Shown here in pieces: positions 4,045 through 43,998 of a stretch of 64,000 nt of DNA (positions are counted from its first letter, which is position 1; every line of letters starts with the position of its first letter). This DNA comes from Deltaproteobacteria bacterium (GTDB taxonomy: Bacteria; Desulfobacterota; Desulfuromonadia; Desulfuromonadales; Geopsychrobacteraceae): contig JAJRQI010000008.1 of the NCBI GenBank assembly GCA_024280335.1, forward strand, positions 62,001 through 126,000, in the 5' to 3' direction. The translations under genes and the position numbers were made by a program. A model generated the notes under the pieces. That model saw nothing but the letters and a program-made list of their open reading frames with translations, was not told the DNA's origin and made no database searches.

Positions 4045-4767
4045 TTATCTCCTGGCATTGAGTGTTACAGCGGCGATCCGCTGCCAGGTCCCATCGACCT
4101 TCATCTCGCGAAGCAACTCAGCGAGCGGCGCAACCAGTGCCGCATGTCGCCGATGCAGGTACAGATACATCGGCTTGACTGCCAGCGGGGGACGACAGGC
4201 GGCCAGGTCCGTATAGTTGTTTCTGGCAATGATCTCCATTCCCGCATAGCGTTCATACAAGATGATGTCCACCCGGTTACCGAACAACAGCTTAAATAGC
4301 TGTTGCGGCTTGGAGACCCTGGAAATCCGGGAATTTTTCGGGACATTGTTTTCGTAAATTTTCCAGCCGATAATCATTCCGACCTGTTTCTGCTCCAACC
4401 CCTGCCAGGTAAGCTCTGTCTCTACAGGATGACGCATAAATGCGGTAAATTCATAGTTGATTACCGCTTCCGGAACCCGAATGAGATTGGGATATTTCTT
4501 TTCCAGACCGGCTACCCGTGGGACATCGGCATCGCTGTAGCCTTCATTGACCATCAACAGGGCCCGCTCGGCCGGCAAGCGGGATAACACGGCTTCATAG
4601 CCGGCCCGCCGAAACAGCTCTGCCAACAGTTGGTCAAAAAAGCCATCCTGCTGTTCAGTGGAAAAGGGCGGTTTTATCGAGGTGTTAATCGTTAAGGTCG
4701 CAGCAGGCAGGTGGCTGGGCAGCAGGAGAAATAAGCTGATAAACAAAAACCGGATTTTTTTCTGCAT
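4045..4767 (-). CDS. Periplasmic solute-binding protein (family 3-like)
   Basis: Secreted binding-protein-fold protein of 240 residues. I choose the ATG at 4767 because GGAGGTG lies just upstream and the product then starts with a clear signal peptide (MQKKIRFLFISLFLLLPSHL, cleaved near LPAA). The mature part has the lobe order of extracellular solute-binding proteins of the amino-acid type (IKPPFS near the start, then a DIILYERYAG segment). No transporter permease or ATPase is adjacent. Instead the gene follows a sensor kinase (27 bp after it), so a role as a sensory ligand-binding partner is as likely as transport; that is inference. Ligand unknown. Confidence 0.7.
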   Translation of the reverse strand: MQKKIRFLFISLFLLLPSHLPAATLTINTSIKPPFSTEQQDGFFDQLLAELFRRAGYEAVLSRLPAERALLMVNEGYSDADVPRVAGLEKKYPNLIRVPEAVINYEFTAFMRHPVETELTWQGLEQKQVGMIIGWKIYENNVPKNSRISRVSKPQQLFKLLFGNRVDIILYERYAGMEIIARNNYTDLAACRPPLAVKPMYLYLHRRHAALVAPLAELLREMKVDGTWQRIAAVTLNARR

Positions 4768-4793
4768 TTTCACCTCCACAAAGCAAGGTCACC

Positions 4794-6638
4794 TCAAACC
4801 GTCGACCCGCCTGTTGAATCCAGGATTTTGCGCACCGCAGAATCGAGGTCGACAACGGTAAACGGCTTATACAAAACGTCCCGCACCCCGGCAATTTTCA
4901 AGGAGTTGTCGACCGACTGATCGGCAAACCCGGTCCAGATAATCACCGGCAGGTCCGGGTTCTTCTGCCAGACTTTTTTGGCCAGATCGGTACCGGACAT
5001 TTCCGGCATGGTCAGGTCACTGATCAACAGATCGAAACGCTCCCCCTTCTGCAACAGGTCGAGAGCCTGCAAGGGATTACTCGTCGCCGTCACCTGATAA
5101 CCCAAATCCTCAAGCAGGCCTTTGCCCATGTCGATCACGGCAGGCTCGTCGTCGACCAGAAGAATACGCTCCTGCCCGCCGATGACCTCAGCCGCATCGC
5201 TGGTCAGTTCGGTATCTTCCGGTTCGGTTTCCGGCAGACAGATACGGAAGCAGGTCCCCTGTCCTGCTTCACTGTCGAGACAGATTGCGCCCTTATGCGA
5301 CTGCACGATGCCGTGCACGACCGCCAACCCCATCCCGGTTCCTTTGCCGACTTTTTTGGTGGTGAAGAAAGGATCGAAGATCCGGTCGCGGATATCTGCT
5401 GGAATCCCCGGCCCGTCATCTTCAATCTGCAGGCAGATATAACCGCCTGTTTTGAGCGGCTGCAAACAGTGCCACTCCTCCGTAGCCGTTTGGCGACTGA
5501 CAGAAACCTTTAAACAACCGCCCGATTCGGCCATCACATAGCCGGCATTACTCGCCAGATTCATCACCACCTGGTGCAATTGGGTCGCATCACCGAGCGT
5601 CCAGAGGCTCTCATCCAGTTCTGTTTCAATCTGAATATTCGCCGGCAAGGACGCACGGATCAGGGTCAGAGCTTCCGAGACGACTGCAGCCAGCTGGATT
5701 TTCTCCTGATTTGCTTCGGTGTGACGGCTGAAAATCAGAATCTGTGAAATCAATGTTTTGGCTCGTTGCCCGGCATGGATGATCTGCTGCAAACGCTCAT
5801 GAACCTTGGAGCCAGGCTCCACGCCTGCCGCACAAAGCTGCCCATAACCAAGAATGGCCGCAAGAATATTATTAAAATCATGGGCAACACCACCGGCCAG
5901 GGTCCCCAGCGCTTCCATTTTTTGCGCTTGGGTCAGTTGCTGTTCCAATTGCCGGCGGCGATTAAATTCGTTTTTAATCTGCCCGACCAAGCCGTCAACA
6001 GCATCCGTCAGTCGATCGATCTCATCCAGCGAGGCAGGACGATTCGCTGCGGCCAGCGGCTGTAATCGCTCGACATCGGCCAGGTCGATTTCACGGGTGT
6101 ATTTTTCAACGGCCACCATTCGCCGCACCGCCTGGTGGTGAAAAAGCAGGAAAATAATTGCGGCAAGACCGAAGACCCCGATGCTGTTGAGCAGAAAAAT
6201 CTTCGGGAATTCATTCTTCAACAGCGTCAGGTAGTCACGGTAACCAGCCTGGATATAAACCTGACCGATTTCCAGACTCGGTGACTGATAGTTTACCTGG
6301 ATACGAAAATCAAGAAAGGGTGCGCGGTCCTTTTTGCCCTGCTGAATACAAAGAACTGCGTCCTTATCGCAGATTTTCATGAAGGTAAAAAGCTGACTGG
6401 TCTGGCTATCGACAATCGCCTGTACCATTTTCCAGTTATAATTCCAAACCGCCTCGCTCACCTCCCGCAAAGGTCCGGCGCTGAAATTTTTGAAGCTTTT
6501 TCGAATCTGCTCTCGTTGCCATTCCTGCCGGTTGCGCACTTCAACCAGCGAGACAACCACACTGATGAAAAAACAGACCAGCAGCGTACTCAACAGCAAC
6601 TTGCGCGTTAAACTGACAAATTTAATCGGCAGAGCCAA
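4794..6638 (-). CDS. Hybrid sensor histidine kinase with C-terminal receiver domain
   Basis: Membrane two-component sensor of 614 residues. Two membrane helices (about residues 11-31 and 146-166) bracket a periplasmic domain; a HAMP-like linker and coiled coil follow. The H-box GGVAHDFNN places the phospho-histidine at about residue 253, in the subfamily with AHDFNN. The ATPase domain shows N-box NLASNAGYVM, G1 DDGPGIP and G2 GTGMGL. A receiver domain follows with acidic pocket DDEPA, phospho-acceptor Asp in LLISDLTMPEMSG and the conserved Lys in KPF. There is no separate response regulator gene next door. It overlaps the end of the upstream HIT gene by 17 bp and precedes the binding protein, suggesting one operon. 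Confidence 0.9.
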   Translation of the reverse strand: MALPIKFVSLTRKLLLSTLLVCFFISVVVSLVEVRNRQEWQREQIRKSFKNFSAGPLREVSEAVWNYNWKMVQAIVDSQTSQLFTFMKICDKDAVLCIQQGKKDRAPFLDFRIQVNYQSPSLEIGQVYIQAGYRDYLTLLKNEFPKIFLLNSIGVFGLAAIIFLLFHHQAVRRMVAVEKYTREIDLADVERLQPLAAANRPASLDEIDRLTDAVDGLVGQIKNEFNRRRQLEQQLTQAQKMEALGTLAGGVAHDFNNILAAILGYGQLCAAGVEPGSKVHERLQQIIHAGQRAKTLISQILIFSRHTEANQEKIQLAAVVSEALTLIRASLPANIQIETELDESLWTLGDATQLHQVVMNLASNAGYVMAESGGCLKVSVSRQTATEEWHCLQPLKTGGYICLQIEDDGPGIPADIRDRIFDPFFTTKKVGKGTGMGLAVVHGIVQSHKGAICLDSEAGQGTCFRICLPETEPEDTELTSDAAEVIGGQERILLVDDEPAVIDMGKGLLEDLGYQVTATSNPLQALDLLQKGERFDLLISDLTMPEMSGTDLAKKVWQKNPDLPVIIWTGFADQSVDNSLKIAGVRDVLYKPFTVVDLDSAVRKILDSTGGSTV

Positions 6639-32228: not shown

Positions 32229-33443
32229 TCACAGAAAACTATCATGCGCCCGAAGCAGATGTACATTAACCTCTTCGCCTGCCTCGATCCTGCCCCGATC
32301 TGCGGGAAGGACCGCAAGCCCGTTGGCCCGCAACATCGTCCTTAGAATCCCGGTATTCTGGTCACCGGAACTTGTCGCGACCAGACGACCACCATCTTCA
32401 GCCACCAATACCCGTAAAAACTGGACCCGGCCCGGCTTCTTGTTCACTGCTTTGCTCAGCGTGGCTTTTGCAAACGGCTTGAGAACCTTCTGATAACCCT
32501 GCATTTTAAGTAGTGCCGGACGGACGAATTCCTCAAAGGTCACCAGGGTCGAAACTGGATTCCCCGGCAGGGAGAAGACCGGTGTGCCCGCTTTCAAACC
32601 GAAAGCGGTCGGGCGGCCGGGTTTGATGTCAACCTTCCAGAACAGCTGCTCAACCCCCGCTTCCTGCAACATTTCACAGACCAGATCACGATCGCCCATC
32701 GACACTCCGGCGGAGGTGAGCAAAACGTCAGCCTGCAACCCTTCCATCAACTTCCCCTGTAGACTCTCACGGTTATCCCGGGCAATGCCGAGCATCAGCG
32801 GCTCGCCGCCGGCCTCTTTGACCGCGGCAGCCAACGAATAAGCGTTGCTGTTGACAATCTGTCCCGGCCCGATCGCCTCACCCGGCTCGACCAGTTCGTC
32901 ACCGGTGGACAGGATGGCAACCTTCGGCCGCTGAAAAACCCGAACGGTGGTAAAACCGAACGAGGCCAGCAAGCTGATTTCTGCCGGGCGGAGAACGCTG
33001 CCGACGGTCATCACCAGCTCACCCTGGCGGATATCCTCGCCGCGAAAACGGATATGATCACCAACCTGCGGCGTCCCTTTAAGAACAACCGTCTTGCCGT
33101 CCTCTTCGGTCTCTTCGATCGGCACCACGACCTGACAACCTGCCGGGGTCGGTGCGCCGGTCATGATTTTCACTGCGCATCCGGGAGTCACCTGGATATT
33201 CTCGGCGCTGCCGCCGGCCGGGATATAGCCGCTGATGGTCAGTTGGGCGGCAGCGCGACAATCTTCCTCCCGCAGCGCAAAACCGTCCATTGCCGAATTA
33301 TCCCAACGCGGCATCTCGTAGGGTGCGTGGATCTGCTCGGCCAACACCCGGCCACCGGCATCAAGCAAAGTGACCGATTCAGCCGGCAGCGGGGCAACAT
33401 TATCTAGAATCAGAGTCCTTGCACCCTCAAAGGTTTCAGCCAT
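32229..33443 (-). CDS. moeA: Molybdopterin molybdenum/tungsten transferase, MoeA
   Basis: Inserts Mo or W into adenylylated molybdopterin at the end of cofactor synthesis. The 404 residues match the family. Motifs include MPRWDNSAMDGFAL near the start, KIMTGAPTPAG, STGDELVEPG, VLLTSAGVSMGDRDLV and FSLPGNPVST. The start ATG at 33443 is preceded by GGAG and overlaps tupC by 34 bp. As the last gene of a porin-tupABC operon controlled by Moco/Tuco riboswitches, it is probably dedicated to tungsten cofactor (inference). Confidence 0.93.
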   Translation of the reverse strand: MAETFEGARTLILDNVAPLPAESVTLLDAGGRVLAEQIHAPYEMPRWDNSAMDGFALREEDCRAAAQLTISGYIPAGGSAENIQVTPGCAVKIMTGAPTPAGCQVVVPIEETEEDGKTVVLKGTPQVGDHIRFRGEDIRQGELVMTVGSVLRPAEISLLASFGFTTVRVFQRPKVAILSTGDELVEPGEAIGPGQIVNSNAYSLAAAVKEAGGEPLMLGIARDNRESLQGKLMEGLQADVLLTSAGVSMGDRDLVCEMLQEAGVEQLFWKVDIKPGRPTAFGLKAGTPVFSLPGNPVSTLVTFEEFVRPALLKMQGYQKVLKPFAKATLSKAVNKKPGRVQFLRVLVAEDGGRLVATSSGDQNTGILRTMLRANGLAVLPADRGRIEAGEEVNVHLLRAHDSFL

Positions 33444-34135
33444 TGTTTTTTCTCCGTTGGTTTGCAGTTTCTGTGCTTCGTCAGCCGTTGCAGGTTGTCG
33501 AGCAGACGTCCATTCTCTATCCGAATCAGCTGTGCACCCAACCGCGCCGGCTGGGTCAAATCATGAGTGGAAAGGACCACCGTAACGCCATAGTCGGGCA
33601 GCCTGCTGAGCAGCGCCTCAAATGCCTGCAGGCTCTTGCTGTCGATATTGGCGGTCGGTTCATCCAACAGCAGCACTTGCGGCTGCAGCACCAGAGCGCG
33701 GGCCAGTGCGACCCGCTGCACCTCGCCACCGGAGAGGTGCTTCGCTTTGCGCTGTTCTAAACCGGCAAGACCAACCATTTCCAGGGTTGAGGTGATGCGC
33801 TGCTGCTGTTCTTTGCCGCGAATACCGCGCAGCTTGAGCCCGAAAGCAAGGTTGTCCGAAACACTCCCATTCAGTAAATAGGGGGACTGTTCGACCAGGG
33901 TAACCTGCTGCCGTAACTGGACCAGATCTCCGCCCATTGCTGCCGCAATGCTGACGGTCCCTTGATCGGGCGTAATCAGCAGCGCCAATGTTTTGAGCAG
34001 GGTACTTTTACCGGCGCCATTTGCTCCGGTCAGTGCATAGATCTGCTGCGGATACAGGTTAAGATCCTCGATCGACAAACTGAAATTCTCACCCCGATGG
34101 AGAGACAGTTTTTTTACCCGGATAATCGGTTCCAT
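33410..34135 (-). CDS. tupC: Tungstate ABC transporter ATPase, TupC
   Basis: ATPase of 241 residues with Walker A GANGAGKST (about 37-45), signature LSGGEVQRV and Walker B LLLDEPTANID. It follows tupB by four bases and overlaps moeA. It lacks the C-terminal regulatory Mop domain of ModC, as expected for TupC. Specificity comes from the neighbouring TupA. Confidence 0.9.
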   Translation of the reverse strand: MEPIIRVKKLSLHRGENFSLSIEDLNLYPQQIYALTGANGAGKSTLLKTLALLITPDQGTVSIAAAMGGDLVQLRQQVTLVEQSPYLLNGSVSDNLAFGLKLRGIRGKEQQQRITSTLEMVGLAGLEQRKAKHLSGGEVQRVALARALVLQPQVLLLDEPTANIDSKSLQAFEALLSRLPDYGVTVVLSTHDLTQPARLGAQLIRIENGRLLDNLQRLTKHRNCKPTEKKQWLKPLRVQGL

Positions 34136-34139
34136 CGAT

Positions 34140-34826
34140 TCACCTCTGTTGCAACAGGTTCAAAAACAGATTAACGAACAGGGCGACACTTAACAGTACA
34201 ATCCCCAGCGCCAGCCCGAAAGCAAATTCCCCCTTGCTGGTCTCCAGAGCAATCGCCGTGGTCATGGTGCGGGTTGAACCGCGGATATTGCCGCCGAGCA
34301 TCATCGCCACGCCGACTTCGCCGATCACCCGACCGAATCCGGCAATGACTGCCGCCATCACCCCGAAACGGATCTCTTTGACCAGTTGGACTCCGGCCTG
34401 AAAGCGGGTTGCCCCCAGGGTCATCGCCGTATCGATAATCCGCTCATCGGCACCCTTGACCGCTGCCAGCACATAATTGGCGACAATCGGCGTCGCCAGC
34501 ACCATCTGCCCGGCGACCATCGCCAGCGGTGTAAACAGCAGGCCGAGGCTGCCGAGCGGCCCCTGCCTGCTGAAGATACCGAACAATACCAGGCCGACAA
34601 CCACGGTCGGCAGCGCCATCAGGGTGTTGAGCAGAGTCACCAGCAAGCGCCGACCGCGAAACCGGGACAAACCGAGCAGCACACCGGCCGGGATACCGAT
34701 AACCGCCGAGAGGATAATGGCACCGCTGGAGGTGTAGAGTGACGTCCAGACGGCGCTCTGCACCTCCCGATCAAAAGCGAAAACCAGCTCAAGCGCATGG
34801 AGGAATGATTCGCTCAGGTAGCCCAA
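34140..34826 (-). CDS. tupB: Tungstate ABC transporter permease, TupB
   Basis: Inner-membrane permease of 228 residues with about five or six helices. The EAA-like loop appears in TAMTLGATRFQAGVQLVKEIRFGVMAAVIAGFGRVIGEVG, a pattern typical of TupB/WtpB-type permeases. Located between tupA and tupC with gaps of 9 and 4 bp. Confidence 0.9.
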   Translation of the reverse strand: MGYLSESFLHALELVFAFDREVQSAVWTSLYTSSGAIILSAVIGIPAGVLLGLSRFRGRRLLVTLLNTLMALPTVVVGLVLFGIFSRQGPLGSLGLLFTPLAMVAGQMVLATPIVANYVLAAVKGADERIIDTAMTLGATRFQAGVQLVKEIRFGVMAAVIAGFGRVIGEVGVAMMLGGNIRGSTRTMTTAIALETSKGEFAFGLALGIVLLSVALFVNLFLNLLQQR

Positions 34827-34835
34827 GATATCCCC

Positions 34836-35627
34836 TTATTTTACGTAAAAAAGTTGCTCACCGCCTCTGCGGTAGCCGGTAATCAGCGTCTGTGCCTGTT
34901 TCGAGGTCAGATAATCGAGAAACTTCTTCGCCAGCGCAACCTTGACATGCGGGTGCTTCTGCGGATTGACTATAATGACACCGTAAGGGTTGAACAACCG
35001 CTGATCGCCTTCGCCGACAATCTGCAGGTCGGTTTTACTCTTGAATGCCAGATAAGTACCGCGATCGCTCAAGGTGTAACCGCGCCGTTCACCGGCCATG
35101 ACAATCACTTCACCCATGCCGCGCCCGGCTTCCAGATACCAATCACCGTCAGGAGTGACCCCGGCGGCCTTCCAGAGCTGCTTCTCGCGGCTGTGAGTAC
35201 CGGAGTCATCACCGCGTGAAACGAAGGTCGCTTCGGTCGCAGCGATCTTGCCCATGGCGGCAGCGACATCGCTCAGGCCGTTAATCCCGGCCGGATCGCC
35301 GGCCGGTCCGAGCAGGACAAAATCGTTGTACATCACGTCACGCCGGTCGACACCGTATCCCTGGGCAACAAACTTGTCTTCTTTGCTGCGGGCATGGACC
35401 ATGACAACATCGACATCACCGGTTTCACCCAGCTTGATCGCCTTACCGGTCCCGACGGCGATCACATCAACCTGACAGTTGTTGGCCTGCTCAAAGGGCG
35501 GCAACAATTCAGCAAGCAGACCGGAATTTTCCGTCGACGTGGTGGTTGCCAGCCGCAGGTGTTCGGCGGCAAAGGCTGGTGAAGCAAACAGAAACAATAA
35601 CAGTACGAGAATATAACCTCGGAACAT
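34836..35627 (-). CDS. tupA: Tungstate-binding periplasmic protein, TupA
   Basis: Substrate-binding protein of 263 residues with signal peptide (MFRGYILVLLLFLFASPAFA). The diagnostic TTTSTENSG motif at the mature N-terminus is the TTTS oxyanion-binding signature that distinguishes TupA from ModA and WtpA. The segments VDVVMVHARSKEDKFV and FVSRGDDSGTHSREKQLW also match TupA. TupA proteins bind tungstate far more tightly than molybdate (family knowledge). This supports tungsten use by the nearby AOR. Confidence 0.94.
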   Translation of the reverse strand: MFRGYILVLLLFLFASPAFAAEHLRLATTTSTENSGLLAELLPPFEQANNCQVDVIAVGTGKAIKLGETGDVDVVMVHARSKEDKFVAQGYGVDRRDVMYNDFVLLGPAGDPAGINGLSDVAAAMGKIAATEATFVSRGDDSGTHSREKQLWKAAGVTPDGDWYLEAGRGMGEVIVMAGERRGYTLSDRGTYLAFKSKTDLQIVGEGDQRLFNPYGVIIVNPQKHPHVKVALAKKFLDYLTSKQAQTLITGYRRGGEQLFYVK

Positions 35628-35684: not shown

Positions 35685-36935
35685 TCAATAGTAAAACTGT
35701 GCCTGCAGACGGAAGATCGTATCGTCCTGCCCTTGATTCCAGTTATCCTCAACCAGAGTAATATCGGACTGCAGCTTAAGAGCATGCCTGGCGAAATAGT
35801 AGTTGACGCCGAACTGGGTCTCAGATTTGTCGAACTTGGCCGAGGCGTCGGCATCGGTCGACTCGACAGCCGCATAGCGCAGCGCCAGTTCCAACCTCTG
35901 CGGAATTACCTGATAACCGGCCTGCAGGTAGTAACCGTCCGCACCCCAGTCCGCGCCTTGATCGGGATCGGCATTGAGATTGTAGTACTCGGCAGCAAAG
36001 GTTGCCCCCTGCCAGCGAGCGTTCAGGTTAGCGGTCCACAACTTCATCACCAGGTCGCTGCCGTAGGTAGAAGAAAATGCGGCAGCGGTCGTAGCGTCGA
36101 GATTGAGCGCCTTGTCCAGCACATCGTTGTCTTTGTCGAAATTGCCTGCCACATCACTGGCACTGACTGTATTGTGGGAAAAAGAGCCGCCGAGGGTAAG
36201 CTCCAGTTTGTCACCGGGCCAACCGGCCTCATCCATTTTGTAGCTGCCCAGGGGATTGATATCGATCCGCCCGGCGTACATCTGGTTATTATCAGGATTG
36301 CTGACATTGGGGCCGTTGCCGTTAAAGATTCCCAGCCGATACTGCACCAGTTTATCAGCGAAGCTGCCGGAGGCCTGCAAACCCTGATCGCGACCGAGGT
36401 TGAAGGTATCGTTGGCCAGCGAACGATCGGGGAACAGCTGTTTGGAAGCCGAGGTCAGCTCCTGCCGAGCCTGCGGCGGTTTAAACTGGCCGACCTGCAG
36501 AGTCAGGGCGGGGCTGAATTTATAGTTGAGATAGGCATCCTCGGTTTTGAAGCCACCAGCCATCTCGCCCTGATATTTGTAGCCGAACTTTTTATTGAAC
36601 AGATAGCCCTTCAACTGCAGCTTGAAGCGGCGGATATCGAAATCGCTTTTATCGTCCATGGTTTGATCATCACGACCGGTATAGCGGTAGATAAATTGCG
36701 CGTAACCGCCGATATTGAGCTTGTAATTGCCGTCGGCGCTGACCGCAGCAAGTCCCTTGCCGGGGATATAGTCGACCTGGCTGTTTTTACTCGCTTCGGC
36801 ATAGTCCTCGGCAGTGATCACCCCCTTGTCCTTGAGAATTTCTTCCAGAGAGCGGGCCTGGGCGTGGCTGACCGGCCAGCAAAGGGTCACCAGCAGCGCG
36901 ACCAGCAGCAGTCGTGTGGGACTTGTTCTTTTCAT
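35685..36935 (-). CDS. Outer-membrane porin of the OprP/OprO type
   Basis: Beta-barrel porin of 416 residues. The ATG at 36935 is preceded by AGGAGG and yields a signal peptide (MKRTSPTRLLLVALLVTLCW). A short coiled N-terminus (EEILKDKGVITAEDYAEA) precedes the barrel, which has FDIRRFKLQLKGYLF and PPQARQELTSASK segments as in phosphate-selective porins O and P. It ends in an aromatic residue (QAQFYY), as required for barrel assembly. As first gene of the tungstate operon it probably lets tungstate or molybdate across the outer membrane; that specificity is inference. SD GGAGGATG is complementary to a leader segment at 37110-37117. Confidence 0.85.
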   Translation of the reverse strand: MKRTSPTRLLLVALLVTLCWPVSHAQARSLEEILKDKGVITAEDYAEASKNSQVDYIPGKGLAAVSADGNYKLNIGGYAQFIYRYTGRDDQTMDDKSDFDIRRFKLQLKGYLFNKKFGYKYQGEMAGGFKTEDAYLNYKFSPALTLQVGQFKPPQARQELTSASKQLFPDRSLANDTFNLGRDQGLQASGSFADKLVQYRLGIFNGNGPNVSNPDNNQMYAGRIDINPLGSYKMDEAGWPGDKLELTLGGSFSHNTVSASDVAGNFDKDNDVLDKALNLDATTAAAFSSTYGSDLVMKLWTANLNARWQGATFAAEYYNLNADPDQGADWGADGYYLQAGYQVIPQRLELALRYAAVESTDADASAKFDKSETQFGVNYYFARHALKLQSDITLVEDNWNQGQDDTIFRLQAQFYY

Positions 36936-36942
36936 GGTGTTG

Positions 36943-37117
36943 CATCCTCCTGTTTTGGGTCTGATATGGCTCCGGTCCATCCGAAGCCTCGCTAGCGCAG
37001 TCAAGCCGGACTGCGCAGATTCCATAGAATCGGGACCCATTTAACAGGCAACACATGCCAGAACAGCAGGGTCCCACAGGCGAACAGGGACCCTGGCAAC
37101 TACGTCCAGGGAGGATG
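36943..37117 (-). promoter_or_regulatory. Possible SD-sequestering pair in the porin leader
   Basis: On the minus strand the leader contains CATCCTCC (37117-37110), the perfect complement of the porin ribosome-binding segment GGAGGATG (36950-36943). Between them a 9-bp hairpin (CAGGGTCCC/GGGACCCTG, 37067-37095) brings the two closer. Together with riboswitch 2 just upstream, this could allow translational control. No experiment is implied. Confidence 0.45.
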
Positions 37118-37139
37118 TCCAAGGGCGCAACGTCGGGTT

Positions 37140-37229
37140 CTCCTTTCCACACTGGGAGGCACAGCCGTTTCCAGCAGTACCCATCGGCCGCAAACCCTGG
37201 GAAGTTCCGTTAGGCGTTGAGGCTCGGAG
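37140..37229 (-). ncRNA. Moco/Tuco riboswitch 2 (proximal to the porin gene)
   Basis: On the minus strand the RNA begins CTCCGAGCC and ends CCCAGTGTGGAAAGGAG, with conserved internal GCCGATGGGTACTGCTGGAA and GGCTGTGCCTCCC. The closing CTCC/GGAG pair and the terminal GCCTCCC-n-TGGAAAGG pattern match the Moco RNA motif (as in E. coli moaA). Variants of this class are proposed to sense tungsten cofactor (Tuco). It is 205 bp before the porin start and is nearly identical to riboswitch 1. Confidence 0.88.
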
Positions 37230-37243
37230 AAAACAAATTTTTA

Positions 37244-37271
37244 ATTTTACACTAAAAACTAGAAGCTACAA
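37244..37271 (-). promoter_or_regulatory. Possible second promoter between the tandem riboswitches
   Basis: On the minus strand TTGTAG and TAAAAT lie 16 bp apart, in an AT-rich spacer after the riboswitch 1 terminator and just before riboswitch 2. It would give riboswitch 2 its own transcript. The -35 is weak. Confidence 0.35.
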
Positions 37272-37305
37272 TTCACAGTAAAAATCAGGTAGTTACAGTT
37301 TCACT

Positions 37306-37343
37306 AAAAATAAAAAAGGCCCCTTTCACACTGGAAAGAGACC
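37306..37343 (-). terminator. Riboswitch 1 expression-platform terminator
   Basis: On the minus strand GGTCTCTTTC-CAGTGT-GAAAGGGGCC is followed by TTTTTTATTTTT: a 10-bp stem with two G-U pairs and a U-run. Its 5' arm (TCTCTTTCCA) can also pair with the 3' strand of riboswitch 1 (TGGAAAGGAGAGA at 37389-37377), which gives a plausible antiterminator. Confidence 0.85.
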
Positions 37344-37379
37344 CTGAGCAGACGCACCACGAGCGACACGTTGCGATCT

Positions 37380-37471
37380 CTCCTTTCCACACTGGGAGGC
37401 ACAGCCGTTTCCAGCGGTACCCATCGGCCGCTCGCCAGGGGAAAACCCGTCAGGCGTTAGCGGCTCGGAGA
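37380..37471 (-). ncRNA. Moco/Tuco riboswitch 1 (distal, followed by terminator)
   Basis: Minus-strand RNA with CTCCGAGCC at the 5' end and CCCAGTGTGGAAAGGAG at the 3' end; the core GCCGATGGGTACCGCTGGAA and GGCTGTGCCTCCC are shared with riboswitch 2. It starts 57 bp after the thiF stop, downstream of a possible promoter, and is followed about 40 nt later by an intrinsic terminator. The arrangement is a transcriptional OFF switch in front of a second aptamer of the same class. Confidence 0.88.
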
Positions 37472-37502
37472 ATTATTCAATTTTTTTCTGCTTCGATAAT
37501 CC

Positions 37503-37531
37503 TTGTAACACTCAGCCACAGTGATCGTCAA
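37503..37531 (-). promoter_or_regulatory. Possible promoter of the tungsten-uptake operon
   Basis: Minus-strand TTGACG and TTACAA are 17 bp apart and overlap the thiF stop codon. Transcription would begin about 25 nt before riboswitch 1. The -10 is imperfect; read-through from the AOR operon is the alternative source of transcripts. Confidence 0.4.
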
Positions 37532-38346
37532 AGGGGAATTTCGTCGACCTCCATGTCGAGAAGATTGAAGACAAGTTGACGATTACGCAACAGACGTCCC
37601 TGTCCGAGCAGAACTTTGCAGACTTCACCGACTTGCAGACTGGCGGCCACTGCCGGGGTAAAAGAGGGGTTGCCGAGTTGCTGTTCAACCCCCTTGCCGC
37701 CTTGCCAGTGTCGATAGATCGTCTGCATGGAATCGTCGCCGGGCAATACAGTAGCGACATGTCCGTACCAGCCGGCAATAGCCCCGTGGACCAGCGGCAT
37801 TTTCAGCTGGCAACAAACTTCGGCCAACTCCAGCCGGGCAGTCACATTGTCGACCGCATCGACCACACAATCGGCGCCCGCCAGCAGCTCGCCCCCGGAC
37901 TGCTTATCGAACCAGGCTTGAACCGGCGTTAGACTCACTGCGGGATTAATCTCCCTGATCCGTTCTGCCGCGACCTCGACCTTGACGCGACCGAGGTTGG
38001 CCGGGGAGGAGAGCAACTGCCGGTTGAGATTGTTCTCTTCGAAAATATCATCATCGATCGAAACAATCTGCCCGACACCGAGCCTCGCCAACTGTTCCAG
38101 GATATAACCGCCGAGGCCACCGGCACCGATCACTGCCACCTTACTGCGAAACAGCTGCAGCTGCTGGGTGGTCGAGAGCATCTGTTGGTTGCGCTGATAG
38201 CGGGCCGGTAATAGCTGAAGAGTGAGAATCGCCTCTTCCACCTCGGCGAGGCTCACCCCGAACTGCGTCGCAGCCTGTTGCTGGTGCTGCCAGGAGATCA
38301 GCTCGTCTGCGGCATTTTCACTGAGAAAAGTCTGTAGTGCTGTCAT
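37528..38346 (-). CDS. ThiF/MoeB-family E1-like adenylyltransferase
   Basis: Activates the C-terminal glycine of a MoaD/ThiS-like sulfur carrier by adenylation. The 272-residue protein (ATG at 38346) has an N-terminal helical extension, then the nucleotide-binding site GAGGLGGYILEQLARLG and DDDIFEENNLNRQLL with the conserved Asn and Arg. The zinc-ribbon CxxC pairs usual in MoeB are absent. It lies directly after a MoaD-like gene in the AOR operon, so it most probably serves synthesis of the tungsten-pterin cofactor of AOR, not thiamine. Confidence 0.87.
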   Translation of the reverse strand: MTALQTFLSENAADELISWQHQQQAATQFGVSLAEVEEAILTLQLLPARYQRNQQMLSTTQQLQLFRSKVAVIGAGGLGGYILEQLARLGVGQIVSIDDDIFEENNLNRQLLSSPANLGRVKVEVAAERIREINPAVSLTPVQAWFDKQSGGELLAGADCVVDAVDNVTARLELAEVCCQLKMPLVHGAIAGWYGHVATVLPGDDSMQTIYRHWQGGKGVEQQLGNPSFTPAVAASLQVGEVCKVLLGQGRLLRNRQLVFNLLDMEVDEIPL

Positions 38347-38347
38347 T

Positions 38348-38572
38348 TCAACCCCCACCGACCAGCGGGAAGATCGCCAGAGTTTCACCCTCGCTAAGAA
38401 CCCGGTCGAGATCGACGTGTCGATGGTTGATCATCAGAATCCCGAGCTTCTCTCCCGGGAGTTCAAGATCCTTAACAACATCGGCAACCGTTGTTCCGGC
38501 AGGGTAGTCGCGGACCTCAATATTGAATCGACCCGCACGGAAAGTTGCAAATAATTTGACCGTCACCTTCAT
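38348..38572 (-). CDS. MoaD/ThiS-family sulfur-carrier protein
   Basis: Ubiquitin-like protein of 74 residues starting at the ATG at 38572 (AGGAG upstream). The sequence MKVTVKLFATFRAGR at the start and a C-terminal FPLVGGG, ending in the glycines that become the thiocarboxylate, define the family. It overlaps the upstream gene by ATGA and abuts the E1-like gene. A MoaD role as small subunit of molybdopterin synthase for AOR is likely; a large subunit MoaE is not in this window. Confidence 0.88.
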   Translation of the reverse strand: MKVTVKLFATFRAGRFNIEVRDYPAGTTVADVVKDLELPGEKLGILMINHRHVDLDRVLSEGETLAIFPLVGGG

Positions 38573-39219
38573 CTTGGAACTCCTTGGACGAACCCTTGAT
38601 CGCACTCACCTATTCTGTTCACAAATTCAACGTTGATAAGAATCTCTCCGGTCGGATCAGCCAAGCGGATATGTTCTTCCAGAGAGGCTGGATCGATCTG
38701 CTGCTCGCCAAGAATGATCTCCACGAAACTTTGCCGGAAGCTGTCCTGCTGCTCACGCAAGAAATCTCCCAGCTCTGGGTTAGACAGGTAGATACCCTGA
38801 GACAGAAACGTTTCACCCAACTCTGCCATGACCATGTTGAACAGCTTTATCTTGACACGGCCGGGACCACTCCATTCCGGTTTCTGGCCCTGATAAGTAA
38901 TAGCTCCACGCATTGCCGCCAGATGGCCGCCGCGACGCAGTGTTGTCCCGACCAGTCCCGGCATCGCTGAAGAGAGAGCCAGCGTGGAACCATCCTTGAT
39001 ATAAGATGTGTCCAGGTCATCGATCGCCTTGCCGTTCAGAAACAGGGTGGTAATTCGCCCGGTGACATAATCCTCAGCAATCCCGAACTGCCCGACCAAA
39101 AGAGCCATCACACTACAACCGACCTCTGCCTGCAGCCGGACGCCCTGTTGCAACAACGGAGAAAAAGCTGACAACTGCTGCTGAGGAAGAACCATGCGCA
39201 ATGTTTGCTTTTCAGACAT
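38569..39219 (-). CDS. Uncharacterised protein of the AOR operon
   Basis: Soluble protein of 216 residues that I cannot assign. It has no signal peptide or membrane segment. A central stretch (TTLFLNGKAIDDLDTSYIKDGSTLALSSAMPGLVG) looks like a beta-grasp fold with similarity in style to MoaD, followed by a Gly/Arg-rich TTLRRGGHLAAMRG. It is placed between the AOR gene and moaD and overlaps moaD by four bases, so its function should be tied to AOR or its cofactor. A hairpin precedes it. Confidence 0.7.
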   Translation of the reverse strand: MSEKQTLRMVLPQQQLSAFSPLLQQGVRLQAEVGCSVMALLVGQFGIAEDYVTGRITTLFLNGKAIDDLDTSYIKDGSTLALSSAMPGLVGTTLRRGGHLAAMRGAITYQGQKPEWSGPGRVKIKLFNMVMAELGETFLSQGIYLSNPELGDFLREQQDSFRQSFVEIILGEQQIDPASLEEHIRLADPTGEILINVEFVNRIGECDQGFVQGVPR

Positions 39220-41072: not shown

Positions 41073-41114
41073 TCCCTAGCTCCTTTTGATTGTAAAAGAG
41101 GTTGCACAAAAAAG

Positions 41115-41215
41115 CTCCTTTCCACCTGGGAGGCAGGATCGTTTCCAACCCTACCCATAGGACCTTCGCCATGAGGAAATCCCCTTTAGGCAACCGGACT
41201 CGGAGTCGTTAATCA
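41115..41215 (-). ncRNA. Moco/Tuco riboswitch 3 in the AOR leader
   Basis: Minus-strand RNA of about 101 nt with CTCCGAGTCC at the 5' end and GCCTCCC-AGG-TGGAAAGGAG at the 3' end; the core CCTATGGGTAGGGTTGGAAACGA corresponds to GCCGATGGGTACTGCTGGAA of the other two. It ends 43 nt before the AOR start. The 3' strand repeats the word AAAGGAGCT of the AOR ribosome-binding site, suggesting control at translation. It differs in stem lengths from riboswitches 1 and 2. Confidence 0.85.
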
Positions 41216-41251
41216 GGATCGAAAGCCATCTCGACCGAGACAAATAGTCAA

Positions 41252-41503: not shown

Positions 41504-42079
41504 TCAATCCGGTCGCCGGGCGACGATACCAGCCAACGAACCACCCTTTGCCGAGGGTTCGATTCCTTCCTCGTGGAGCAGGATCTCCCAGTCGGCAAAG
41601 ATCTCCAGTAATTCACCCGCCCGAAGTGAAATATCCGGATCGATCGGTCCATATCGGTCGGATCCGGCCCGGCTGAAGGTCCGCATAACAATAACGCCGC
41701 CGGGGCGCACCCTGGCAAGCTCCTGCGGCAACAAGGGCCGATGCAGATAGAAAAAATTGAGCAGCAGATCAAAAGGACCAGCTGGTAACTGCGCAGCAGT
41801 CTCCAGATCGAGCTGCAGGGTTTCGATGGTCAGGCCGCGGCGCTGCGCTTCATCATCCAGCAGACTCAATGCCACCTCGGACACATCGACCGCGGTCACG
41901 GCAAACCCCTGTTCGGCAAGGAAAACAGCATTTCGCCCCATCCCGCAGGCGATATCAATCGCTTTCCCCCGGTGCAACAGGGGCCGAATCTTCTGCAACC
42001 ATGGATCGGCGATAAAATTGGCCGTAACAGCCTTTTTACGCCAGCGGTCGTTCCAACGACAACGAGAGGGGACGTTCAT
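41504..42079 (-). CDS. Class I SAM-dependent methyltransferase (TehB-like), copy 1
   Basis: Small cytoplasmic methyltransferase of 191 residues. The SAM site is IDIACGMGRNAVFLAEQGF (about residues 40-58), followed by VTAVDVSEVAL and FDLLLNFFYLHRPLL, a pattern shared with TehB-like enzymes. It is a close paralogue of the gene at 43426; the first ten residues differ because the RAYT element borders its 5' end. It starts four bases after the RAYT stop and may be expressed with it. Substrate unknown. Confidence 0.85.
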   Translation of the reverse strand: MNVPSRCRWNDRWRKKAVTANFIADPWLQKIRPLLHRGKAIDIACGMGRNAVFLAEQGFAVTAVDVSEVALSLLDDEAQRRGLTIETLQLDLETAAQLPAGPFDLLLNFFYLHRPLLPQELARVRPGGVIVMRTFSRAGSDRYGPIDPDISLRAGELLEIFADWEILLHEEGIEPSAKGGSLAGIVARRPD

Positions 42080-43150
42080 AAGTTCATAACTTTCTCAATT
42101 CCGACAACCGATAACCCTGCTCCGCCGCCAATCGCTCCCCGCGCTGCACCGACAAACTCACCGCCGGCTGACTGATGCCAAGCTGCGCAGTCAACGAGGT
42201 CGCGGTGCAGCCCAGCTCGCGCACCGCCCAAAAGCAGAAAAGACTGCGTGCCCTCACCCTTTGCGGCTGCTTGCCTCGGGCGCAAACTTCGGCGACATCA
42301 ACCTGAAGCACCGTCGCAACCGCTTCAGCCAGCTGATCCAGGCCGAAACCAGCCGCGCGGTAAGACTCTCTGACCGCAATCTGCTCGTCGGCCTGTGCCA
42401 GCACAGCGGCGACAAAATCCCCGTCACCCAGAATCCGCGCATCGCTCAAAGGCAAATCCCCAGCGGTAACGCTATTTTGTCCAGCACCGATTAAACTGCG
42501 AAGCAACCCGCCACCGGACAGTTCGGGACGTTGCTTCTGTTCGACTCCATCAGCAACAAAAGCAAGATACTTCTTCCGTGCAGCCCTCTCGCCCTTGCCG
42601 AAATAGCCCAAAATCTCATCAACCGCCAGCGCTCCCGGATTCTTCAGCCCCAGTAATTGTCGATGCCCGCAATAGGGATAAAGCGCCAGATCATCCAATG
42701 AAACGACCAGCCCGGCCCGCAGGGGATTGAGATGGATATAACGGATCAGCTCGAAAAGGTAGAGATCGTCCTGGCAGATGATCGATTTATAGCGATTTTG
42801 AAACAGATGGCCGCTGCGCTTGTGGCGCAGGTTAAAAGCCACCGCGTAGCCGGTCAGCAGGCGGCGCATCACCGTACTGATGGGGGTCGGGCCGGTCTGC
42901 AGCAGCAGATGGAAATGATTGGGGATCAGCACCCAAGCGTAGCAGCGCGTCTCGGTGGCCGCAAGGATGGTTTCGAGCCGGGTGACAAAATCGTCACGGT
43001 CGGCATCGGTGCGAAAGATCGGCTTACGCTCGACACCACGACAGATGATGTGGTGCAGAGCGCCGGGGGCGTCGATACGGGCTTGGCGAGGCATAGGAGA
43101 AGGATAGCAGCAGACATGGGGGATGCAACTTATAATCTTATGAACGTCCC
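42069..43150. mobile_element. RAYT insertion with 14-bp inverted ends between the duplicated segments
   Basis: The ends GGGACGTTCATAAG (42069-42082) and CTTATGAACGTCCC (43137-43150) are perfect inverted repeats that enclose the RAYT gene. Each end lies about 12 bp from the junction with a duplicated segment (42056 and 43163). Thus the 1.1-kb transposase segment is placed symmetrically between the two copies. Confidence 0.7.
42084..43094 (-). CDS. REP-associated tyrosine transposase (RAYT, Y1/HUH family)
   Basis: Single-domain HUH endonuclease of 336 residues related to IS200/IS605 transposases. The N-terminal MPRQARIDAPGALHHIICRG, the metal-binding HFH in PNHFHLLLQ, and the catalytic Tyr in FQNRYKSII are all present. 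The C-terminal third has a DnaA-like helix-turn-helix segment (VCARGKQPQRVRARSLFCFWAVRELG). RAYTs process palindromic REP elements. It is directly downstream of a duplicated sigma-54 promoter, which could drive it. Confidence 0.93.
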   Translation of the reverse strand: MPRQARIDAPGALHHIICRGVERKPIFRTDADRDDFVTRLETILAATETRCYAWVLIPNHFHLLLQTGPTPISTVMRRLLTGYAVAFNLRHKRSGHLFQNRYKSIICQDDLYLFELIRYIHLNPLRAGLVVSLDDLALYPYCGHRQLLGLKNPGALAVDEILGYFGKGERAARKKYLAFVADGVEQKQRPELSGGGLLRSLIGAGQNSVTAGDLPLSDARILGDGDFVAAVLAQADEQIAVRESYRAAGFGLDQLAEAVATVLQVDVAEVCARGKQPQRVRARSLFCFWAVRELGCTATSLTAQLGISQPAVSLSVQRGERLAAEQGYRLSELRKL

Positions 43151-43425: not shown

Positions 43426-43998
43426 TCAATCTGGTCGCCGGGCGACAATACCTGCCAAGGAACCACCCTTTGCCGAGGGCTCGATGCCTTCTTCGTGAAG
43501 CAGGATCTCCCAGTCGGTAAAAATCTCCAGCAATTCACCCGCTCGAAGTGAAATCTCCGGGCTGATCGGTCCATAGCGGTCAGCCCCGGCGCTACTGAAG
43601 GTTCGCAAAACAATCACACCGCCGGGGCGCACCCGAGCAAGCTCCTGCGCTAACAAAGGTCGATGCAGATAGAAAAAATTCAACAACAGATCGAAAGGAC
43701 CGGCCGGTAACTGCGCGTCAGTCTCCAGATCGAGCGGTACGGTTTCGATGACCAGGTCGCGGCGCCGCGCTTCCGCATCCAGCAGATCCAGCGCCACCTC
43801 GGACACATCGACCGCGGTCACGGCAAACCCCTGTTCGGCAAGAAAAACAGCATTCCGCCCCATCCCGCAGGCAATATCGATCGCTTTCCCCCGGGGCAAC
43901 AGGGGATGGATCTTCTGTAGCCACGGATCGGCGTTAAAATCGGCGACAGCCGCCTTTTTACGCCAGCGGTCATTCCATCTGTTGTGTAGGTCGCTCAT
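43426..43998 (-). CDS. Class I SAM-dependent methyltransferase (TehB-like), copy 2
   Basis: Paralogue of the gene at 41504 (190 residues), with the same SAM-binding IDIACGMGRNAVFLAEQGF and overall sequence. It follows mftF by 110 bp on the same strand with only a weak hairpin between, so it could be the last gene of the mycofactocin operon. Mycobacteria use a SAM methyltransferase (MftM) to methylate the mycofactocin glycan; whether this protein does the same is speculative, because the resemblance is only at superfamily level. Confidence 0.83.
   Translation of the reverse strand: MSDLHNRWNDRWRKKAAVADFNADPWLQKIHPLLPRGKAIDIACGMGRNAVFLAEQGFAVTAVDVSEVALDLLDAEARRRDLVIETVPLDLETDAQLPAGPFDLLLNFFYLHRPLLAQELARVRPGGVIVLRTFSSAGADRYGPISPEISLRAGELLEIFTDWEILLHEEGIEPSAKGGSLAGIVARRPD

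Follow-up and report, generated by a model that had tools for sequence, protein, structure and literature searches.

We analysed a 64,000-nucleotide stretch of DNA (hereafter the window) that carries a pair of Moco-family riboswitches between genes of tungsten metabolism. In transcription order, the locus consists of a third aptamer, an aldehyde:ferredoxin oxidoreductase (AOR) gene, a 216-aa ORF, MoaD-like and MoeB/ThiF-like genes, aptamer 1, a terminator, aptamer 2, and the genes for a porin, tupA, tupB, tupC and moeA. The features are as follows:

41099–41217, minus strand: third aptamer, P3-less Moco/Tuco RNA (RF01055), 26 nt before the AOR start codon
39330–41072, minus strand: AOR family enzyme (PF01314, E 2.1e-73; PF02730, E 1.1e-57)
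38348–38605, minus strand: MoaD/ThiS-like sulfur carrier (PF02597, E 6.2e-10)
37528–38388, minus strand: MoeB/ThiF-like adenylyltransferase, stop codon 45 nt before aptamer 1 (PF00899, E 2.1e-52)
37502–37531, minus strand: promoter-like TTGACG-18-TACAAG (by consensus only) that overlaps the moeB stop codon ahead of aptamer 1
37365–37482, minus strand: aptamer 1, P3-less Moco/Tuco RNA (RF01055)
37316–37345, minus strand: intrinsic terminator of aptamer 1, an 11–12 bp stem followed by a T-rich tail
37124–37241, minus strand: aptamer 2, P3-less Moco/Tuco RNA (RF01055)
36936–37123, minus strand: putative expression platform of aptamer 2
35685–36935, minus strand: porin (Porin_O_P; PF07396, E 1.6e-21), the gene that opens the controlled operon
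34836–35627, minus strand: tupA, tungstate-binding protein (NF041772, E 1.9e-67, below the curated equivalog cut-off)
34140–34826, minus strand: tupB, permease (NF041773, E 2.2e-61, below the cut-off; NF038017, over the cut-off)
33410–34135, minus strand: tupC, ABC ATPase (PF00005, E 6.9e-32)
32229–33443, minus strand: moeA, metal insertion into molybdopterin (PF03453/PF00994/PF03454)

Profile searches confirmed the porin, tungstate-transport and moeA operon of the original prediction, in the order porin-tupA-tupB-tupC-moeA, and the TTTST motif attributed there to TupA is present (TTTSTENSGL). Scores against the TupA and TupB profiles, though clear, stay under the curated equivalog cut-offs. 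The 216-aa ORF between the AOR gene and moaD (38569–39219) had no Pfam or NCBIfam match; it is kept at about 46–60% identity in the AOR operons of seven other genomes (G017, G018, G032, G091, G093, G094 and G101) and represents an uncharacterised tungsten-operon protein. Elsewhere in the window, two very similar TehB-like methyltransferase genes (41504–42079 and 43426–43998) flank an ORF (42084–43094) that resembles a REP-associated transposase, a name given by sequence only.

The original prediction placed two Moco-class aptamers at 37140–37471 and proposed a covariance-model search as a check. When the whole window was searched (cmscan, Rfam 15), RF01055 matched at 37482–37365 (aptamer 1; 61.0 bits, E 3.4e-12) and at 37241–37124 (aptamer 2; 67.8 bits, E 3.5e-14), against a gathering cut-off of 36 bits, and the predicted interval covers the cores of both. 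A third match, at 41217–41099 (58.8 bits), lies 5' of the AOR gene. All three matches are on the minus strand, complete, and span the full model (positions 1–135). Aptamers 1 and 2 are separated by 123 nt. Their description as nearly identical was overstated: the cores share 84% identity, with almost identical P4–P5 halves and a P2 that differs. With the third aptamer, the AOR–tup region holds three P3-less Moco-family aptamers in series. The arrangement itself had thus been recognised correctly, while the third aptamer and close precedents had been missed.

Among 136 genomes of the window's order, RF01055 gave 147 matches in 67 genomes. Same-strand pairs less than 350 nt apart numbered five (the window, G032, G093, G094 and G135), and all five (5/5) stood before a porin–tup operon. 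The order AOR riboswitch, AOR, moaD, moeB, two riboswitches, porin, tup was the same in Geothermobacter hydrogeniphilus (L097) and Geotalea (L144, L170), and more pairs before porin and tupA were found in Pelotalea chapellei (L137) and at L114, L152, L153, G281 and G328; tandem pairs precede porin–tup operons at about 12–13 loci. Two further porin–tup loci have wider-spaced pairs, 591 and 1109 nt apart (L117 and L105, respectively), three have a single aptamer (L104, L113, L134), and other such loci have none over the cut-off. The tandem pair at porin–tup loci is frequent, though not universal. Copy-to-copy identity between species (95% and 91%) exceeded identity within a locus (80–84%), so the pair is older than the divergence of the window species from G032, although the aptamer tree resolves too poorly for the duplication to be dated.

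Several other arrangements were seen in the relatives. At four loci (L054–L057), tupC is enclosed by two RF01055 aptamers 767–823 nt apart, and tupA-tupB follow the second aptamer, plus moeA where the contig reaches. A Geotalea toluenoxydans contig (L072, about 4747–5295) carries a series of three similar P3-less aptamers upstream of an ORF; the middle one was recognised by eye only, and each is followed by its own terminator-like hairpin. In G093 and G094 (L050, L051), an insert-like stretch between inverted repeats (CCTGAATC...GATTCAGG) lies between the terminator and aptamer 2; the corresponding position in G032, between the aptamers, is occupied by a different palindromic insert. In L050 and L051, the interval from aptamer 2 to the porin gene also contains a short leader ORF (<20 codons), whose own SD (GGAAAGGAGG) lies in a hairpin and whose frame is kept despite indels.

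The strong terminator predicted after the first aptamer is real (37345–37316), and a terminator is present in the aptamer 1 region at nearly all of 15 tandem loci scanned, that of G032 lying in an assembly gap. The 5' arm of the window's terminator (37344–37333, GGGUCUCUUUCC) can alternatively pair with the 3' strand of aptamer 1 P1 (GGAAAGGAGAGAUC), forming an antiterminator. In computed folds of a transcript cut off immediately before the 3' arm of the terminator, the antiterminator beat P1 by 5.2 kcal/mol in the window. The corresponding advantage was 7.0 kcal/mol in G093, G094, Geotalea SG265 and G036 (which has a single aptamer), and 2.2 kcal/mol in G135. When P1 was enforced, the antiterminator was lost and the full-length RNA then made the terminator. 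By these folds the two structures are mutually exclusive and coupled to P1, and the coupling recurs in relatives, where stem sequences vary among genomes and both pairings persist. A duplex search with the P1 3' strand against shuffled sequences gave modest z values of about -2 to -5 for several aptamer 1s, and about +1 for aptamer 2 of the window. Because the P1 3' strand can pair with the terminator 5' arm, ligand binding should release the terminator; the pairing choice corresponds to the usual OFF-switch logic, and OFF is the direction we infer in vivo.

Aptamer 2 lies 188 nt before the porin start, and neither a consensus scan nor the terminator scan of the tandem loci detected an intrinsic (U-rich) terminator after it in the window. 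Among the 15 tandem loci scanned, a canonical terminator was likewise missing after aptamer 2 in G032, G093, G094, G135 and two Geotalea. Within the order, the aptamer 2 leader is shared only with the nearest relative, G032 (77% identity). The short elements of the leader considered here are the following:

37139–37131, minus strand: aptamer tail AACCCGACG
37093–37087, minus strand: GGGUCCC (element 1)
37075–37069, minus strand: GGGACCC (element 2)
37038–37032, minus strand: second GGGUCCC (element 3)
36961–36957, minus strand: GACCC, beside the SD (element 4)
36950–36946, minus strand: SD GGAGG

The tail and elements 1–4, five elements chosen after the sequences had been seen, are identical in the window and G032, and their alternative pairings suggest a relay. 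With P1 closed, elements 1 and 2 would pair, as would 3 and 4, and a stem would enclose the start region. If P1 is open, the tail would instead pair with element 1, element 2 would pair with element 3, and element 4 would be left unpaired. At the stage before element 2 is transcribed, the P1-open fold was favoured by 4.0 kcal/mol in the window and 7.6 kcal/mol in G032. Between the two computed states of the window, the unpaired probability of the start codon rose from 0.01 to 0.97, yet the SD became paired; in G032 the start codon was open in both states and access was unchanged. At equilibrium, with P1 on or off, no clear switch in SD access was found in the window, G032, G093 or G094. A candidate anti-SD, CAUCCUCC near 37112, pairing with the SD of the window, was rejected, as that stretch is deleted in G032.

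Compared with the window, Geotalea gives a clearer case for action on translation. In both Geotalea an anti-SD, CCUGUUC, is perfectly complementary to GAACAGG adjoining the SD, and in a truncated SG265 transcript without P1 a competing hairpin sequestered this anti-SD; for G. toluenoxydans, equilibrium folding under the constraints did not distinguish the two states. For the window, we put the chance that aptamer 2 acts on translation at a little over even. The original suggestion that the tandem might combine two modes of control is plausible to this extent: the missing intrinsic terminator agrees with it, while the window's folds of the aptamer 2 platform are ambiguous.

Alternatively, both aptamers could act on transcription in a pseudo-cooperative manner, with the GGGUCCC/GGGACCC hairpin serving as a U-poor or Rho-assisted terminator. 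In the window and in G032 this hairpin does compete with the P1 3' region of aptamer 2, and the second aptamer of Pelotalea, L152, L153, G281, G328 and G426 is followed by a terminator-like hairpin with a U-rich tail. In the window, however, no U-run follows the hairpin (UGCUGUUCU) and the consensus scan found no terminator there, so that we regard purely transcriptional control by both aptamers as doubtful.

It could also be asked whether the two aptamers share a transcript. If they belonged to two leaders, aptamer 1 and its terminator would end the AOR-moaD-moeB operon and gate read-through into tup, and aptamer 2 would have its own promoter. Such an arrangement would suit the position of aptamer 1, which follows the moeB stop by only 45 nt in the window and lies close behind moeB in G032, G093, G094 and G018, as well as the AT-rich region with a weak promoter-like site between the terminator and aptamer 2. 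However, the best promoter-like site of the region, TTGACG-18-TACAAG (37531–37502), precedes aptamer 1 and is found in G032 too, with identical hexamers and spacing; its score, on an approximate sigma-70 matrix, was reached by 0.033% of strand positions. Between the aptamers there are weaker promoter-like sites only, and these do not correspond between the window and G032. Geotalea SG265 has a near-consensus promoter before aptamer 1 and none between the terminator and aptamer 2, a stretch of 41–45 nt in Geotalea into which no promoter fits. In G135 the AOR operon is divergent, yet the pair still stands before the porin gene. Two separate leaders are thus unlikely. In several relatives the stretch from terminator to aptamer 2 is shorter than about 50 nt and without promoter-like sites, which favours one transcript through both aptamers there. 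In the window a single leader is favoured on the promoter-like sites, and read-through from the AOR operon may contribute.

As to the ligand, P3-less Moco RNAs go with Tuco metabolism in 17 of 19 organisms and P3-bearing ones with Moco (Regulski et al. 2008, PMC2408646), whereas deletion of P3 from an E. coli RNA abolished control and did not switch specificity (PMC2408646); P3 absence as a mark of the Tuco (Wco) subtype is a correlation. In all three alignments of the window the P3 model positions are deleted, or nearly so (cmscan), and the three aptamers lie in a tungsten-gene context (tup, AOR). In the genome (3.59 Mb in 72 contigs, 99.5% complete) there are five AOR-family genes, one modA and nine molybdopterin oxidoreductases (PF00384), and the organism therefore probably uses both tungsten and molybdenum. 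A covariance search of this genome found no RF01055 match beyond the three at AOR and tup, and none at modA; the riboswitches are confined to tungsten genes despite the modA gene and the nine PF00384 enzymes. Given the correlation of P3-less RNAs with Tuco metabolism, Tuco is likely the ligand of aptamers 1 and 2, and the argument for the tungsten cofactor, made originally from TupA and AOR, is strengthened by the missing P3 in all three aptamers and by the distribution of matches. That they respond to Moco, or to both cofactors, is quite improbable: the organism has modA and molybdoenzymes and the ligand class rests on the P3 correlation only, but P3 is missing in three aptamers and RF01055 occurs at AOR and tup genes and not at modA.

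We consider it likely that the porin-tupABC-moeA leader carries two P3-less riboswitches in series that sense Tuco and both switch the operon OFF when it is plentiful, the first acting by attenuation and the second on translation. Without ligand, the P1 3' strand of aptamer 1 would form an antiterminator with the 5' arm of the hairpin that follows. With ligand bound, P1 would close, the terminator would form and RNA polymerase would stop. Transcripts that pass the terminator would then reach aptamer 2. Lacking an intrinsic terminator, this second switch would control translation of the porin start region via alternative pairings in its 188-nt leader. Tungstate uptake and metal insertion would thereby be shut off more steeply, at two checkpoints. 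A more specific version is tentative and in our view rather doubtful: a same-class, bi-mechanism Tuco device in which aptamer 1 acts by transcription attenuation and P1 formation in aptamer 2 is relayed over 190 nt, via the GGGUCCC/GGGACCC repeats, to the porin start codon, kept specifically before porin–tup because the Porin_O_P protein might be an outer-membrane entry pore for tungstate, a supply needing sharp shut-off. In the literature searched, we found no earlier report of a tungstate-related role of a Porin_O_P protein.

The device is a well-supported member of an already described kind, and what is new is the porin–tup context and the series of platform variants. Tandem Moco RNAs were reported in Syntrophomonas wolfei and G. 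metallireducens (Regulski et al. 2008, PMC2408646). In S. wolfei, a P3-less triplet precedes an operon that encodes MPT synthesis and molybdate/tungstate transport; its first two aptamers are followed by terminators and the third is not (PMC2408646). The likeness lies in P3-less aptamers in series before such an operon, the upstream ones with terminators and the last with a long gap and none; the triplet differs in having three aptamers instead of two, in belonging to a Firmicute and in that no porin is mentioned. Tandem Wco riboswitches have been classed as pseudo-cooperative, and bi-mechanism pairs have been defined (Sherlock et al. 2022, PMC9481103). The tandem Wco/Moco riboswitches (PMC9481103; G. 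metallireducens in Regulski et al. 2008) are same-class doublets like the present pair, whereas the genes named in the review are hydrogenase and arsenic-response genes and here the operon is one of tungstate uptake. Bi-mechanism tandems (SAM-II/SAM-V and some SAM-II doublets; PMC9481103) resemble the locus in that the first element has a terminator and the second, probably translational, has none; unlike in SAM-II/SAM-V, both elements here are of one class (Tuco), and the translational step in the window is putative.

In conclusion, the locus adds a conserved context for tandem Tuco riboswitches, namely tungstate uptake with an outer-membrane porin as the first gene. The natural variants, in which the second aptamer comes with or without a terminator, would allow one and two levels of control to be compared for their value, and the arrangement predicts a tungstate-related role for the Porin_O_P protein.
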